Assembly (NCBI RefSeq): GCF_903969135.1
Contig: NZ_LR824569.1
Coordinates: forward strand, 3,927,001-3,991,000
Source of the DNA: Chryseobacterium sp. JV274
GTDB lineage: Bacteria; Bacteroidota; Bacteroidia; Flavobacteriales; Weeksellaceae
Direction of reading: 5' to 3'
DNA: 64,000 nucleotides
Shown here: in pieces, positions 12,259 through 25,655 of the stretch
Position numbering within the stretch: the first letter of the stretch is position 1
Layout: the number at the start of each line of letters is the position of its first letter
Made by a program: the position numbers and the translations under genes
Notes under the pieces: generated by a model
Told to the model about the DNA's origin: nothing
The model's database searches: none
The model's input: the letters and a program-made list of their open reading frames with translations, nothing else

Positions 12259-12854
12259 TTAAGGGTTTTTATCTTTCTGATCCAGTTCAAAACGGATTCT
12301 GTCCTGGTCAATAATTTGTTTTAATTCTTCTTCTTTTGGGAGGTACAGCAGGTATTTGCTGGCGAATGAATTGTTTTTATCATTTAGAACGGAATACTTT
12401 ACAATGGTCTCATCCTTTTCTGAGCATAGTAGAATTCCGATAGTTGGGTTATCAAATCCCTTACATTCCAGTTATTTTGTACTGACTCATTCAGATAATA
12501 GTATCTTTTATCTTTATTATCTTGGCTTGAGAGTAATCTGTAATGAGACCAGCTCAATTGTTGAGACAATGTGTCAACAATTGGAAATGCTGTGTAAAAC
12601 TTCCGCATATTAGATAGGTTGGTGTAGTCAAAGCCTTTTCCAAATTCTAAAGTAAACTTTTGAGAAAGCTTTTTGAGCGTATATTTTCCGTATTCTGCAC
12701 GTTCTTTTCCCTGTTGCTCATCTTCCACAATAAGTTTTCCGATTTTCCAGTAGGTGAGCAGTAAAGTAGAATTCGCTATCCGAAAAACTTTTTCGCGCGA
12801 CTGCTTAATGATCTCCTTTACGGATTGGAATAAAAAATCTTCGGAAATTTCCAT
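12259..12854 (-). pseudogene. YhcG/DUF1016 PDDEXK nuclease, internally deleted and frameshifted
   Basis: The first 128 residues from the ATG at 12854 are a good DUF1016 N-terminal domain (EIIKQSREKVFRIANSTLL, LTYWKIGKLIVEDEQQG, and NLSNMRKFYTAFP). After NNWNVR the reading frame carries on in meaningless sequence to a stop at 12399. In another frame, from about 12460 to 12259, the C-terminal tail of the same family appears: DNPTIGILLCSEKDETIVKYS, then ASKYLLYLPKEEELKQII. The middle, which holds the nuclease catalytic D and ExK residues, is gone: roughly 130-150 codons compared with the family length of about 340 aa. The truncated N-terminal domain could still be made as a 151-aa protein. The remnant sits between two POT transporter genes. 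Confidence 0.85.
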
Positions 12855-16620: not shown

Positions 16621-16995
16621 CTATGAGCTAAAATCATTTTGAGATTTTAGTATTTGATTTTCTTCATTTAATTCACAAATCTTTTGTTTTAGAAAATCAA
16701 TGTAGTCCTGTAAATTTTCAATGATTGAATAATTGAAATTTTGGATGTACTGATATTGAGCAGAGTCTTTGAATGTGGAATTTTTATTACTGAACACCAT
16801 TTCTTCCTCTTCTTTAATATCAGAAATAGAAACACTGAGAGATTCAGCTATTTTCTTCCATTCATCTTCATGTATTCTGACCTCGCCCCGTTCTTTCCGG
16901 GAATAATTTGAAGGATCAGTAGATAAAATTTTTGCCATCTTCTCTTGAGAGATGCCTTTGAGTTTTCGTAGGTTTTTTAGTTTTTCTTGCTTCAT
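16621..16995 (-). CDS. XRE-family helix-turn-helix regulator
   Basis: This 124-aa protein has an N-terminal Cro/CI-type helix-turn-helix (residues 3-60: KLKNLRKLKGISQEKMAKIL, then DPSNYSRKERGE). A C-terminal segment of heptad character (NLQDYIDFLKQKICELNEENQIL) is probably a dimerising coiled coil. It is transcribed divergently from the small-peptide gene, with 150 bases between them. A perfect 22-bp palindrome lies 26 bases upstream of its own start codon, so autoregulation and control of the peptide operon are likely. That control is inferred from position. Confidence 0.85.
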   Translation of the reverse strand: MKQEKLKNLRKLKGISQEKMAKILSTDPSNYSRKERGEVRIHEDEWKKIAESLSVSISDIKEEEEMVFSNKNSTFKDSAQYQYIQNFNYSIIENLQDYIDFLKQKICELNEENQILKSQNDFSS

Positions 16996-17020
16996 GATTC
17001 TTAATGTCTATTGCAAATAT

Positions 17021-17042
17021 GCAAAACATGTACATGTTTTGC
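17021..17042. promoter_or_regulatory. Perfect 22-bp palindrome, probable operator
   Basis: Each half-site reads GCAAAACATGT and the two halves meet without a gap. Flanking GCAAAT (17013-17018) and ATTTGC (17048-17053) add an outer, slightly off-centre pair. It lies between the divergent XRE regulator and the peptide operon. The symmetry suits a dimeric helix-turn-helix protein. Confidence 0.65.
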
Positions 17043-17098
17043 AAGAAATTTGCCAAAAAAATACCTGATCTATTTCTCTTACTAGAGATTTTAATTTA

Positions 17099-17106
17099 TA
17101 GTTTTG
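17099..17106 (+). promoter_or_regulatory. -7 element before the small-peptide gene
   Basis: TAGTTTTG matches TAnnTTTG and lies 39 bases upstream of the peptide ATG. No TTG is found at the normal -33 distance, which would fit a promoter needing an activator. Confidence 0.45.
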
Positions 17107-17145
17107 AAAAGTCAATAATGACACAGAATATTTAATTAAAACATT

Positions 17146-17340
17146 ATGAAAAACAATTCTTTGAAAATGAAGAAAGCAAGTCTATCCAGAAATGAATTAA
17201 GATCACTTAAAGGAGGGAAAATAGGAAACGGAGGAGGAACTATTATCGGAATCGGTGGTGGAGAAGTAGAGTGCGGATGTGTACAAGCTGGTTGTGCTGG
17301 AGATGGTAGTGCAAGATGCGGAGGAGGATGTTGTAACTAA
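17146..17340 (+). CDS. Double-glycine-leader, Cys/Gly-rich peptide precursor
   Basis: The 64-aa product has a charged leader, MKKASLSRNELRSLKGG from Met8 to Gly24, of the double-glycine type cleaved by C39 peptidases. The 40-residue core after Gly24 is about 38% glycine and has six cysteines at residues 43, 45, 50, 58, 62 and 63, in the spacing C-x-C-x4-C-x7-C-x3-CC. That count allows three disulfides. The next gene encodes a VKOR-thioredoxin protein able to form disulfides. I infer a secreted, oxidatively folded peptide, possibly a bacteriocin or signal. No lanthipeptide or radical-SAM enzyme and no C39 ABC exporter are in the window, so the exporter must be elsewhere. Met1 or Met8 could be the start. 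Confidence 0.75.
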   Translation: MKNNSLKMKKASLSRNELRSLKGGKIGNGGGTIIGIGGGEVECGCVQAGCAGDGSARCGGGCCN

Positions 17341-17352
17341 AATTAAAATCGT

Positions 17353-17385
17353 AATCAGCAATGAAATTTCATTGCTGATTATTTT
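17353..17385 (+). terminator. Perfect hairpin between precursor and maturation genes
   Basis: The arms at 17353-17366 and 17367-17380 (AATCAGCAATGAAA and its complement) form a perfect 28-base palindrome, followed by ATTTTT. It lies 13 bases after the peptide stop and 15 bases before the next ATG. It is probably a partial terminator or an mRNA stabiliser, giving much more precursor than membrane protein. Confidence 0.65.
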
Positions 17386-17394
17386 TAAGTATTT

Positions 17395-18903
17395 ATGAAG
17401 AAAAATATTAATATATTAACAAGCTATTTAAATCTTGTCGATATCCATATTGATAAGACTGAGTTTGAATACCAGTTAAATGGACATCCGGAATTTCCTA
17501 ATATTCTGTCTTTTTCCGATACACTTCATTTTTTTAATATTGATTGTTCAATTTTTGAAATAGATGAAGAAGATGTTGAGCTGCTGCCTAAAAACTTTCT
17601 TTCAATCAATGAAGGAAATTTTACATTAGAAGAGAAAAAAAAATATGATATTTCAACTTCTAATGTTGTTTTATTAGTTGACAAGTCAGAGAGTTTTTAC
17701 AATGAAAAGAAGAAAAATAATCTTTTCTTATGGAGTAGCCTTTTATTGGGAACTCTAGTATTGTCTGTTTTATTATTAGACTTTTCTTTCTTTTATGCGG
17801 GAATCGCATTTTTATCACTTTCATTTTTAGGAATTTTCCTTTCTTATGAAGCCTATAAAAAAACGCATGGTAAAGGAACAATTATACCTTTAGGGGTATG
17901 TCAGAATAAGATGTTAAAAACTGACTGTGATTATGTATTTAATTATAAGAAATGGAAGTTTTTGGATATATCTGAAATCTCTTTATTGTTCTTTTTCTCT
18001 CAAATTATTAGTTTTATAGTTTTAGCGATATACAAAGATCTGAGTTTTTACTATTTTGTATATAAGTATATATTCTATTTGTTTATACCCGTTTCATTTG
18101 TTTCATTGTACTATCAGATCATTATTATTAAAAAGCTGTGTCCGGTTTGTATTGGTATCATACTTTGTGTTTATGCCCAGCTGGCTCTTTTATACTTTTT
18201 ACCAAATCAATTTGTAAAGATCAATCCATTTTCTATCGTTTTATATGGTTTGTTTGTCTTGGCTTCTGCTTTGTTTCTTCTTTATTTAAAGGAAAAAATT
18301 AATTGGAACAATAAATTGAAAGAAGAGATTGTAAAAAGTTCAAGGTTTAAAAAGAACTATACATTTTTCAGAAATAATCTTTCAATTCAAAAGAAAGCTC
18401 TTAATGACGATTTTTTAAGTTCTTTTAATTTTGGAACTTCGGATTCTAATTTAACATTAACTTTAGTGACGAATCCTTCTTGTAAATATTGTAAAGAATT
18501 CTACCCGACATTTATGAGAATAATAAATAATTACGGTAATAAAATTCATGTTCGCCTTGTATTGGATGCAGATCTGGATAATTTTTCTGAAGAATTACGT
18601 TCCACCTACATAAATATGGCCAGCATTTATGAAAATTCGGAAGATAAAACCACATTTTTTGTAGCTTTGGAAGAGTGGTATAAGATAAGAACAGATAAAA
18701 ATGGAATAGATAAATGGAATAATAAGTATTCTCATTTATTTAAAAATCAAGAAAATGTCATTGCGACCTTAAATAATCAGAAAAAATGGAGAAAGATAAA
18801 TGATATTAATTTCACACCGGATATTTTTATCAATGGTTATCAATACCCTATCGAATATGACAGAGCAGATTTAGAATATTTCTTATCTGAAATGATTGAG
18901 TAA
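17395..18903 (+). CDS. VKOR-family membrane protein with thioredoxin domain and C39-like N-terminus
   Basis: This 502-aa protein has three parts. Residues 1-100 resemble a C39-peptidase-like domain (LNGHPEFPNILSFSDTLHFFNID), but without the catalytic Cys near the N-terminus. Residues 110-300 are multi-pass membrane sequence with a vitamin K epoxide reductase pattern: loop cysteines C169 and C178, and the active pair C249-P-V-C252. Residues 345-502 are a thioredoxin-like domain with C363-K-Y-C366 after LTLVTNPS. The layout predicts periplasmic disulfide formation driven by quinone. It follows the Cys-rich peptide and precedes a GLPGLI gene by eight bases. The degenerate C39 region may bind the peptide leader; that is inference. 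Confidence 0.8.
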   Translation: MKKNINILTSYLNLVDIHIDKTEFEYQLNGHPEFPNILSFSDTLHFFNIDCSIFEIDEEDVELLPKNFLSINEGNFTLEEKKKYDISTSNVVLLVDKSESFYNEKKKNNLFLWSSLLLGTLVLSVLLLDFSFFYAGIAFLSLSFLGIFLSYEAYKKTHGKGTIIPLGVCQNKMLKTDCDYVFNYKKWKFLDISEISLLFFFSQIISFIVLAIYKDLSFYYFVYKYIFYLFIPVSFVSLYYQIIIIKKLCPVCIGIILCVYAQLALLYFLPNQFVKINPFSIVLYGLFVLASALFLLYLKEKINWNNKLKEEIVKSSRFKKNYTFFRNNLSIQKKALNDDFLSSFNFGTSDSNLTLTLVTNPSCKYCKEFYPTFMRIINNYGNKIHVRLVLDADLDNFSEELRSTYINMASIYENSEDKTTFFVALEEWYKIRTDKNGIDKWNNKYSHLFKNQENVIATLNNQKKWRKINDINFTPDIFINGYQYPIEYDRADLEYFLSEMIE

Positions 18904-18911
18904 ATTAAACT

Positions 18912-19736
18912 ATGAAAAAGCTATTATTTTTATTATTGGGAACATTCACCTGTTTTGCTCAAAGCAACAGATTTGTATATGATGTTGTATCTAAGAAAGA
19001 TTCCACCTCAAAAAATCTTATTAAAGAAAATTTTAATCTGGATATTTCTAAAGATGAAATGAAATATTATAATAGAATATACTATATCAATGATTCAATA
19101 TTTGCGACTAAAAATCAATATGGATTTAAAGGGTATAAACAGACTTCATTTCTGATTAAAAAAAATGATAATAATGAATACCAAAACTATGAATATATAG
19201 GAGATGTGAATTTTTATAAAATAGATGAAAAGGCGGAACAGAACTGGAAAATTACAGATAGTATCAAGATAGCTGATGAACTTCACCTTCAAAAGGCAAC
19301 AACACAATTTGGAGGAAGAAGTTGGGTAGCATGGTTTTCTAAAGATATTCCTATTCCTTATGGCCCCTATAAATTTAATGGATTACCAGGGCTCATTGTA
19401 GACTTGTATGACACAAAGGAAGATTATCATTTCAAGATCATAAAAAGCGAAAAAATTACAGAGGATTATAAACAGGTTTCATTAGAAAACTCTATTTCCA
19501 GAGCAATTCCTGTTAATCAGGTTAAACTGGATAAATTGAAGTTAGAATTGTATGATAGTCCTTTTAAATATATAATGAATGGAAGACTTGTCTTACCTGA
19601 AGGAAAGAAGTTGCAACTTGAAGACGGAACCATTCTCACCAAAGAACAGTTGAAACCAGCTGAAGCTAACGAAAGAAAAAAAATAAAATCTTTCAATAAT
19701 CCAATAGAGTTAGATAAAGCTGTAAAATATCCTTAA
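18912..19736 (+). CDS. GLPGLI family protein
   Basis: The 274-aa secreted protein has a signal peptide (KKLLFLLLGTFTCFAQS) and the family-defining motif GPYKFNGLPGLIVDLYD near residues 150-166. The GLPGLI family is restricted to Bacteroidota and has no established biochemical role. It ends in a lysine-rich tail (ERKKIKSFNNPIELDKAVKYP). With only eight bases after the VKOR gene it is the last gene of the peptide operon, and a strong bidirectional terminator follows. The context suggests a periplasmic or outer-membrane part in producing, exporting or tolerating the peptide. Confidence 0.88.
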   Translation: MKKLLFLLLGTFTCFAQSNRFVYDVVSKKDSTSKNLIKENFNLDISKDEMKYYNRIYYINDSIFATKNQYGFKGYKQTSFLIKKNDNNEYQNYEYIGDVNFYKIDEKAEQNWKITDSIKIADELHLQKATTQFGGRSWVAWFSKDIPIPYGPYKFNGLPGLIVDLYDTKEDYHFKIIKSEKITEDYKQVSLENSISRAIPVNQVKLDKLKLELYDSPFKYIMNGRLVLPEGKKLQLEDGTILTKEQLKPAEANERKKIKSFNNPIELDKAVKYP

Positions 19737-19774
19737 TAAAAACCCCCTTCAAAAGTTTGAAGGGGGTTTTTATT
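19737..19774. terminator. Bidirectional terminator between GLPGLI and S9 peptidase genes
   Basis: Arms AACCCCCTTCAAA (19741-19753) and TTTGAAGGGGGTT (19756-19768) are flanked by A-run and T-run, between convergent genes. Confidence 0.9.
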
Positions 19775-19790
19775 AGTTATAATGTATTGT

Positions 19791-24857: not shown

Positions 24858-25655
24858 ATGAAAAAGACGTTTTCTGAGGAAGATCTGATAAAGAATCTAA
24901 GTTTATATTATCTGAACAGGCATTTGAAAAAAAAGCCCATAGAGAAGTATCACCGTACCATAGACGAATCTCCGCTTCATGACCGTGAAAAATACAGAAA
25001 GAAATCCGAGATTCTACTTCTCAATTCTTTTATGCATCACTTCCCCGAAGTGAAATTTGAAAACCTTACCTGCGAGAGCCCAGACTTTATCGCAAAGCTA
25101 AACGACAAAAAAATTGGAATAGAACTGACTGAAGTAATCAATCATCTGGAAATGAAAAAAGTGGAAAGTACTTTGAATAAAATGTTCCGTCAGGCAGAAA
25201 TATTATTAGAACAGGAAGACACTACGAAATATCGTGGTGTTTATTTTTTAGAATTCCACCAGGAAACTAAATTTGATCATCTTGAAGCACAGCAGGAAAA
25301 TATTATTAATATCTATAAAAGCATCAAGAAAAATAAAGCCATGGGTTGTGTAAAAAGCATAAGAAAATCTTTTCACCGGAGAAATGTCTTTATCACTCAT
25401 GAATATAACATGAACCTTTTTGATGAACTCTGCTCGGAAAAAATCCTGGAACTCATTGAAAAGAAAAATGAAAAATTTCCTTACTACGATACCTCAGTGG
25501 ATGAATGCTGGCTGGTAATTGTTTCAGATATGAATTCTATTGCTTCAAGATATACCTTTATCCAGGATAAAGAACATTTGACGGAAGTAAAGAGTCCTTT
25601 CCATAAGATATTCCATCTCGAAAATCTGTGCGGGAATATTACAAGTATAAAATAA
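24858..25655 (+). CDS. Hypothetical protein with PD-(D/E)XK nuclease-like core
   Basis: The 265-aa soluble protein is highly charged. Around residues 75-95 it has CESPDFIAKLNDKKIGIELT, followed by EV. This looks like the PD...(D/E)-x-(E/L) core strand pair of restriction-endonuclease-fold enzymes (PDF, then GIELTEV), but the lysine of the motif is not obvious. The rest is helical and rich in Lys and Glu. The N-terminus is KKTFSEEDLIKNLSLYYLNR. There is no methyltransferase or partner gene nearby; the gene stands alone between glgP and the T9SS type B gene. The fold assignment is by eye and tentative. Confidence 0.6.
   Translation: MKKTFSEEDLIKNLSLYYLNRHLKKKPIEKYHRTIDESPLHDREKYRKKSEILLLNSFMHHFPEVKFENLTCESPDFIAKLNDKKIGIELTEVINHLEMKKVESTLNKMFRQAEILLEQEDTTKYRGVYFLEFHQETKFDHLEAQQENIINIYKSIKKNKAMGCVKSIRKSFHRRNVFITHEYNMNLFDELCSEKILELIEKKNEKFPYYDTSVDECWLVIVSDMNSIASRYTFIQDKEHLTEVKSPFHKIFHLENLCGNITSIK

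Follow-up and report, generated by a model that had tools for sequence, protein, structure and literature searches.

We analyzed a 64,000-nucleotide stretch of DNA from Chryseobacterium sp. JV274 (hereafter the window), part of a one-contig 5.2-Mb genome whose nearest relatives place it in Chryseobacterium, and describe here a four-gene cassette that sets a VKOR-thioredoxin fusion enzyme beside the precursor of a small cysteine-rich peptide. An earlier note on this DNA had reported four open reading frames (ORFs), namely an XRE-family regulator gene on the minus strand and, on the plus strand, a precursor gene, the fusion gene and a gene of the GLPGLI family, and the coordinates of all four, including the 8 bases that separate the fusion from GLPGLI, were confirmed (Table 1). 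The 64-aa precursor likewise has the described double-glycine (GG) leader and glycine-rich, six-cysteine core of pattern C-x-C-x4-C-x7-C-x3-CC, with 15 glycines among the 40 core residues and cysteines at precursor positions 43, 45, 50, 58, 62 and 63. The calculated mass of the core is 3550.457 Da with all cysteines oxidized and 3556.504 Da in reduced form; that of the oxidized precursor is 6221.931 Da.

Table 1. Genes and sequence elements of the peptide cassette, in window coordinates
Feature	Position	Strand	Basis or remark
XRE-family regulator gene, 124 aa	16621..16995	-	divergent from precursor; HTH_3 (helix-turn-helix) 38.2 bits, cut-off 23
Perfect 24-bp palindrome TGCAAAACATGTACATGTTTTGCA, probable XRE operator	17020..17043	.	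12+12 inverted repeat
TAGTTTTG, -7-like element	17099..17106	+	kept in window, L003, L004 and downstream copy of L005
Precursor gene, 64 aa	17146..17340	+	ORF
Leader, 24 aa, GG-ending	17146..17217	+	leader_Chryseo 14.1 bits, under cut-off
Six-cysteine core peptide, 40 aa	17218..17337	+	stop codon 17338-17340
Terminator-like hairpin (attenuator), precursor/fusion intergenic	17351..17382	+	folding energy, covariation
C39-like / VKOR / DsbA-type thioredoxin fusion, 502 aa	17395..18903	+	profiles, alignments, model
GLPGLI-family protein, 274 aa	18912..19736	+	TIGR01200 147.5 bits, cut-off 50
Strong terminator-like hairpin, 19 pairs, at cassette end, common to convergent DPP-IV gene	19734..19775	.	

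Relatives were collected by searching 147 genomes, of which 89 gave a match, and by scanning named genomes, which gave 7 loci, and each place was fetched with its flanks; the resulting loci carry numbers with the prefix L. The co-occurrence check that the earlier note had proposed returned a uniform answer: all 18 window-type fusions have a six-cysteine GG peptide 55-73 bp upstream and a GLPGLI gene 0-11 bp downstream, and two genomes (L005, L040) carry a tandem pair of cassettes. Judged from these sequences, the cassette is a genuine, conserved unit of a GG-leader six-cysteine peptide, a VKOR-thioredoxin enzyme and a GLPGLI protein. The XRE gene, which had been taken to complete the unit, proved not to be a constant member, as 8 of the 18 loci scanned have a close ortholog, one (L008) has a distant relative in the same place and 9 have none (two of these nine on one contig). 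Nor does the cluster stand by itself: the genome holds two such fusions, 57 leader matches at E ≤10 (35 of them over the curated cut-off) and two C39 peptidase domains.

Conservation of the precursor, on which the earlier reading had also depended, held up. All 18 precursors in an alignment that contains the window's own (15 window-type sequences and 3 from the related L051/L053 group) keep the six cysteines, and many other core positions and loop lengths vary. Selection among five close orthologs is purifying, with a ratio of nonsynonymous to synonymous differences (pN/pS) of 0.05-0.19 over the ten pairs (pN 0.013-0.048, pS 0.14-0.42); diversifying selection was sought in the same five and not found. 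A database search with the precursor alignment gave 55 matches at E ≤10, a count that includes the window's own, and for 51 of these E is 1e-7 or lower; the organism, where the source names one, is Chryseobacterium, and the labels read 'hypothetical', 'bacteriocin-like', 'Bacteriocin' or 'TIGR04149 family rSAM-modified RiPP'. The NCBIfam models leader_Chryseo (NF047798), TIGR04149 and CCPGW (NF047792) describe the same leader type and match 15, 5 and 2 of the 18 precursors, respectively, at E ≤1, although these names are automatic, the window leader falls short of the NF047798 cut-off of 23.5 bits, and none of the cassette genes was recognized as a radical-SAM gene. Modification of the lanthipeptide or radical-SAM kind was considered and set aside, in agreement with the earlier note, as no such enzyme occurs among the genes scanned, which were part of the window ORFs. 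PADLOC models gave no match at E ≤0.01 for the peptide, the fusion or GLPGLI, and for XRE only generic helix-turn-helix matches.

The fusion consists of a C39-like domain (residues 1 to about 100), a transmembrane helix designated TM0 (110-126), a VKOR core (130-300) and a thioredoxin domain (319-502). The redox cysteines named previously, C249/C252 in VKOR and C363/C366 in thioredoxin, are correct, and a second VKOR pair that had been overlooked, C169/C178, is likewise invariant: together with S237, these residues are identical in 16 of 16 diverse fusions and in 28 of 28 members of a second alignment. The window copy thus presents the VKOR hallmark of a loop cysteine pair, a serine, a CxxC motif and a four-helix core. 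It scores below the cut-off of the Pfam VKOR model (PF07884; 20.3 vs. 27.5 bits), which the second fusion of the genome exceeds (36.0), and passes that of Thioredoxin_4 (30.8 bits, cut-off 23.2). In an AlphaFold2 model of the fusion (mean predicted local distance difference test score, pLDDT, 80.6; predicted template-modeling score, pTM, 0.48), the region of about 319-502 matches the fold of BcfH/ScsC/DsbA proteins and that of about 129-275 matches VKORs; the fold search, made with the full-length model, returned no match row over the N-terminal domain, which was not modeled alone.

The suggestion that this N-terminus is a degenerate C39-like domain was borne out by the family profile and by matches of relatives to PF03412 (Peptidase C39, cut-off 22), with L239 at 46.9, P0035 at 29.6 and P0034 at 23.2 bits. 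Nine of 28 family members match PF03412 at E ≤1, the window copy not among them, so that the latter is linked to C39 by the family profile only. That profile is collinear with the C39 domains of transporters at 67% probability, compared with about 0.5% for two control regions. Both the catalytic cysteine and the histidine are absent in 8 fusion N-termini aligned against 8 transporter C39 domains, and the catalytic aspartate is apparently retained, at least in L239. The alignments indicate that the N-terminal domain is derived from C39 and has lost its peptidase cysteine and histidine, and a dead C39 domain, formerly a holder of GG leaders, would be a natural docking site for the leader. In HlyB-type transporters, a peptidase-dead C39-like domain docks the substrate; there the domain sits on an ABC (ATP-binding cassette) transporter, whereas here it sits on a disulfide oxidase.

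Two features of the fusion bear on which side of the membrane it works. An extra hydrophobic helix (TM0 in the window copy) precedes the VKOR core in 123 of 130 fusions, whereas none of 22 ordinary VKORs from the phylum has it; with six helices, the C39-like domain, all redox cysteines and the thioredoxin would come to lie on one membrane side. A solved VKOR was sought by sequence search to serve as topology control and none was found, so we used VKORs of the same phylum, namely 22 of its 30 best-scoring VKOR loci. Lysines plus arginines (K+R) were counted only in loops that belong to the VKOR core, excluding the stretch before TM1 because it is part of the extra helix and therefore not independent of the helix count. 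In the fusions, the redox side has a mean of 7.34 such residues vs. 1.07 on the other side and is the richer side in 130/130; in the ordinary VKORs, these values are 1.55 and 5.77, and the redox side is the richer in 0/22. A hydrophobic N-terminal signal was found in 0 of 117 fusions, and in seven of seven loci where the enzyme is split, the thioredoxin half carries its K+R after its single transmembrane helix and hardly any before it. From the reversed loop charges and the extra helix, which agree under the positive-inside rule, we infer that the VKOR site, the thioredoxin and the leader-binding domain probably face the cytoplasm. In the window genome, no DsbB scores over the cut-off, and there are no full-length VKOR matches besides the two fusions.

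In bacteria, the disulfides of secreted peptides are normally formed outside the cytoplasm. The explanation that we nevertheless favor, by a modest margin over even, is that the product of the cassette is a small, disulfide-rich peptide that is secreted, and that the fusion oxidizes its core in the cytoplasm, before export. In this scheme, the hairpin between the first two plus-strand genes would raise the precursor message above the enzyme message. On the cytoplasmic side, the C39-like domain would dock the GG leader; the core peptide would be oxidized by the thioredoxin, and VKOR would re-oxidize the latter with quinone as electron acceptor. Cleavage at GG and export of the folded 40-mer with its three disulfides would fall to a C39 peptidase-transporter whose gene lies elsewhere, after which GLPGLI would act in the periplasm, its likeliest role being immunity or peptide binding. 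The earlier note had envisaged a peptide that is secreted and then oxidatively folded; its view that the peptide has its own VKOR-thioredoxin enzyme stands, and the order of events is probably the reverse, given the predicted cytoplasmic working face. Some points call for caution. As to topology, the 130 fusions share ancestry, so that their charge counts are not independent events; the positive-inside rule is statistical; and TM1 of the fusion is only weakly hydrophobic. As to the constancy of six cysteines, L048 carries a second precursor with seven.

Alternatively, the fusion might have the ordinary orientation, with the peptide exported in reduced form and oxidized by the fusion in the periplasm, and the C39-like domain being a scaffold that contacts the transporter or a relic. 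Most known bacterial VKOR and Dsb systems are oriented in this way, the VKOR fold and its cysteines are complete, and the signal peptide of GLPGLI (judged by eye) implies that a periplasmic partner exists. We regard this arrangement as rather unlikely, however, as it runs counter to the charge reversal and the extra helix that separate the fusions from the ordinary VKORs, and as, with the extra helix, an N-terminal domain of about 100 residues would sit outside without a hydrophobic signal.

Cysteine numbers provide a separate line of evidence. Among 239 distinct GG peptides at fusion loci, the core cysteine count is even and non-zero in 228, odd in 5 and zero in 6; after clustering at 55% identity, the 104 clusters divide into 94 even, 5 odd and 5 without cysteine (binomial p = 2e-22 against chance parity, clusters), and three loci added later contributed five more peptides (three even, one odd, one none). 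Even numbers also prevail in the window's own genome, in 22 of 24 parsed GG peptides (one odd, one mis-cut), and the control stretches described below show them in each of their 8 plausible GG peptides. Paired cysteines over unrelated spacings are what disulfides would leave behind. It is very improbable that the core instead binds metal, or that the enzyme reduces, with the even count being incidental: CxC and CC motifs do occur in metal-binding peptides, but neither idea sits well with the dedicated pairing of VKOR and thioredoxin or with even, non-zero counts in cores of quite different spacing.

The pairing of fusion and peptide extends well beyond the window type, though not to every member of the family. 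The earlier note had allowed that the VKOR gene might occur widely without a cysteine-rich GG peptide beside it, and this is mostly not the case: a GG peptide with at least 4 cysteines lies within 300 bp in 80 of 117 full-length fusions and within 1.5 kb in 87, and the other 30 have none within 1.5 kb, 11 of them lacking any GG peptide in the fetched stretch. GG-leader ORFs, taken here as those with at least 8 bits on a leader profile built for this analysis, number 166 in the 341 kb that lie no more than 1.5 kb from 114 full-length fusions, a density of 0.49 per kb. For comparison, 18 relatives supplied 20 control stretches, each 20 kb long, which together contain 9 such ORFs (8 plausible, with 7 in a single stretch). 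The one rich control stretch, L163, contains seven GG-leader peptides with 4, 6 or 8 cysteines in its 20 kb and lacks a fusion. Sampling across the phylum gave a fusion match in 33 of 296 genomes, and when 20 such places (L229-L248, one of which is also in the first locus set) were read by eye, 16 had a GG peptide with at least 4 cysteines within about 1.5 kb, that of L231 scoring below the 8-bit cut used elsewhere, and none was seen within this distance at L230, L238, L241 and L243. By these sequence matches, the fusion family spans the phylum.

Variants of the arrangement were also seen. Seven loci (L075-L077, L151-L154) have a split version in which a C39-VKOR protein (281-285 aa) and a membrane-anchored thioredoxin (219-220 aa) are encoded side by side, with GLPGLI, and no GG peptide was recognized nearby; one of them, L075, also encodes a SPASM_w_grasp-like protein (131.5 bits, under the cut-off of 175). 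A subfamily (L051-L054) has one or two CxC..CC GG peptides beside the fusion and GLPGLI, together with a protein of the DUF6625 type (scanned in L051) and another whose GT25 match stays below the cut-off; the peptides of this subfamily are perhaps glycosylated. AhpC/TSA-type thioredoxin-like proteins adjoin GG peptides or fusions at L055:7560-8726, L009:5421-5990 and L295:4788-5915, which suggests further redox partners. Arrays of similar, cysteine-free GG-leader peptides rich in GNG/GST lie on the opposite strand beside the fusion loci L230, L231, L234 and L235.

The cassette encodes no exporter, and both C39 peptidase domains of the genome are more than 200 kb distant. About 210 kb from the cassette, the locus L059 holds the second fusion together with a C39-domain ABC transporter, an HlyD-type protein and a six-cysteine GG peptide, and is probably a general export and folding station; of the genome's second C39 domain, the C39 part alone was examined. 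The window cassette, in turn, gives the impression of a private version of machinery in general use in the genus. For Bacteroidota as a whole, we tentatively propose, at slightly less than even confidence, that an inside-out VKOR-thioredoxin enzyme catches GG-leader peptides with its dead C39 domain, which would amount to a cytoplasmic, leader-dependent and quinone-fed oxidation resembling the maturation of ribosomally synthesized and post-translationally modified peptides (RiPPs) and serving dozens of even-cysteine peptides per genome, with the cassette as a private copy to which GLPGLI immunity has been added.

Regulatory elements surround the precursor on both sides. The palindrome between the XRE and precursor genes is the sole site of its kind in the genome at ≤3 mismatches (two central bases free), and, allowing ≤4 substitutions, it recurs at 8/8 loci with a close XRE ortholog and at 0/10 others (L006 lies on the L040 contig and L007 on the L041 contig, so that the independent loci number 7 and 9, respectively); it is a probable operator of XRE. 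The -7-like element fits the Bacteroidota -7 consensus, TAnnTTTG. Downstream, the precursor/fusion intergenic stretch folds at -19.6 kcal/mol, and in an alignment of 17 of the 18 intergenic stretches of window type the stem is kept while the sequence differs among groups, with 99.1% of cells paired and both-side changes in 9 of 13 pairs. Of 500 shuffled alignments, none scored as high on four of five measures; on the remaining one, further pair types, 83 did. This hairpin was not seen in the related L053/L054 group. The motif TGTCAATANTGACA, which is conserved close to the start of many precursors of window type, was considered as a shared regulon motif and rejected for lack of genomic enrichment: at ≤1 mismatch, it has 9 forward matches and 6 reverse ones, vs. 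5 and 6 for the reversed control. A scan for sigma-70-like promoters gave no signal (17 observed, 20.4 expected).

A divergent XRE gene with a genome-unique palindrome, and a precursor under purifying rather than diversifying selection among close relatives, would both suit a peptide that acts as a signal (pheromone), with XRE sensing the peptide or its precursor and GLPGLI serving as a carrier on the receptor side. We consider such a role unlikely, since XRE is missing in about half of the scanned loci, no kinase or receptor gene is found among the four cassette genes, and the cores diverge strongly among subfamilies.

The GLPGLI protein probably has an N-terminal signal peptide, and its GLPG motif is invariant in 26 of 26 sequences. 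Its predicted model has a PNGase-F-II-bowl/LolA-like fold; in PNGase F-II, the likeness is to the N-terminal domain, and it deserves attention for GLPGLI proteins at large. In four genomes, three of them with an intact frame, a window-type GLPGLI persists at the same site without window-type peptide and fusion, and one of these orphans nests inside the cassette clade (100/99 support) and is constrained, with pN/pS of about 0.14. GLPGLI might be an immunity or carrier protein, and the orphans fit an immunity gene. A carrier or chaperone in the periplasm that is needed to produce the peptide is a possibility that we hold to be less probable, though not negligible; the orphans speak against it. 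From family resemblance and these orphan genes only, we infer that the peptide is more likely a bacteriocin than a signal. The idea that GLPGLI is a general partner of GG peptides was not retained, the genome-wide link being weak; the local link is real, but stems mostly from loci chosen for VKOR or as hot-spots.

The pairing of a GG-leader cysteine peptide with a thiol oxidoreductase is itself already known, from the bacteroidetocins (class IIf), while the enzyme architecture, leader and gene set differ here. As described by Coyne et al. 2019 (PMC6671954), most bacteroidetocin loci contain a thiol oxidoreductase gene, which is needed for full activity, a C39 peptidase-transporter is involved, and no immunity gene was recognized; bacteroidetocin C has an odd number of cysteines, and remoter members have at least two. 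By the same account, their leaders measure 15-16 aa and the five closest peptides have 42-48-aa cores with four cysteines, compared with 24 aa, 40 aa and six cysteines here, and their loci encode a five-transmembrane protein, a separate thiol oxidoreductase and an adjacent transporter, in place of a single C39-VKOR-thioredoxin protein and GLPGLI with no transporter in the cassette. The earlier note's view that the peptide does not resemble bacteroidetocins is thus upheld for the features compared, namely the described leader length, cysteines and gene set. The words VKOR and Chryseobacterium are absent from the main text of PMC6671954.

Relative to VKOR-thioredoxin fusions of the Synechococcus type, the fusion has an additional N-terminal C39-like domain, one more transmembrane helix and reversed loop charges. 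An inverted VKOR of Aeropyrum pernix is reported to make disulfides on the cytoplasmic side, as predicted for the fusion, but is not known to have a C39 domain or a link to GG-leader peptides. We found no description of a VKOR fusion with GG-leader peptides in Bacteroidota in the literature searched, in which subscription journals are thinly covered.

Elsewhere in the window, a short DUF1016/YhcG-type gene with the N-terminal domain only lies between POT transporter genes (12399-12854), its counterpart in L046 being 330 aa long and including a PDDEXK domain, and a 265-aa protein (24858-25655) has a sub-cut-off match to Imm6 (18 bits vs. 25).

If our explanation is correct, an inside-out oxidase joined to a leader-binding domain would constitute a new route to cross-linked peptides that three or four genes suffice to transfer, and would account for the abundance of cysteine-rich peptides made by bacteria that have no recognizable DsbB. 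It would also give the widespread and so far unexplained GLPGLI family a testable role. These findings point to dozens of unstudied peptides in a single Chryseobacterium genome, which perhaps serve in competition or signaling.

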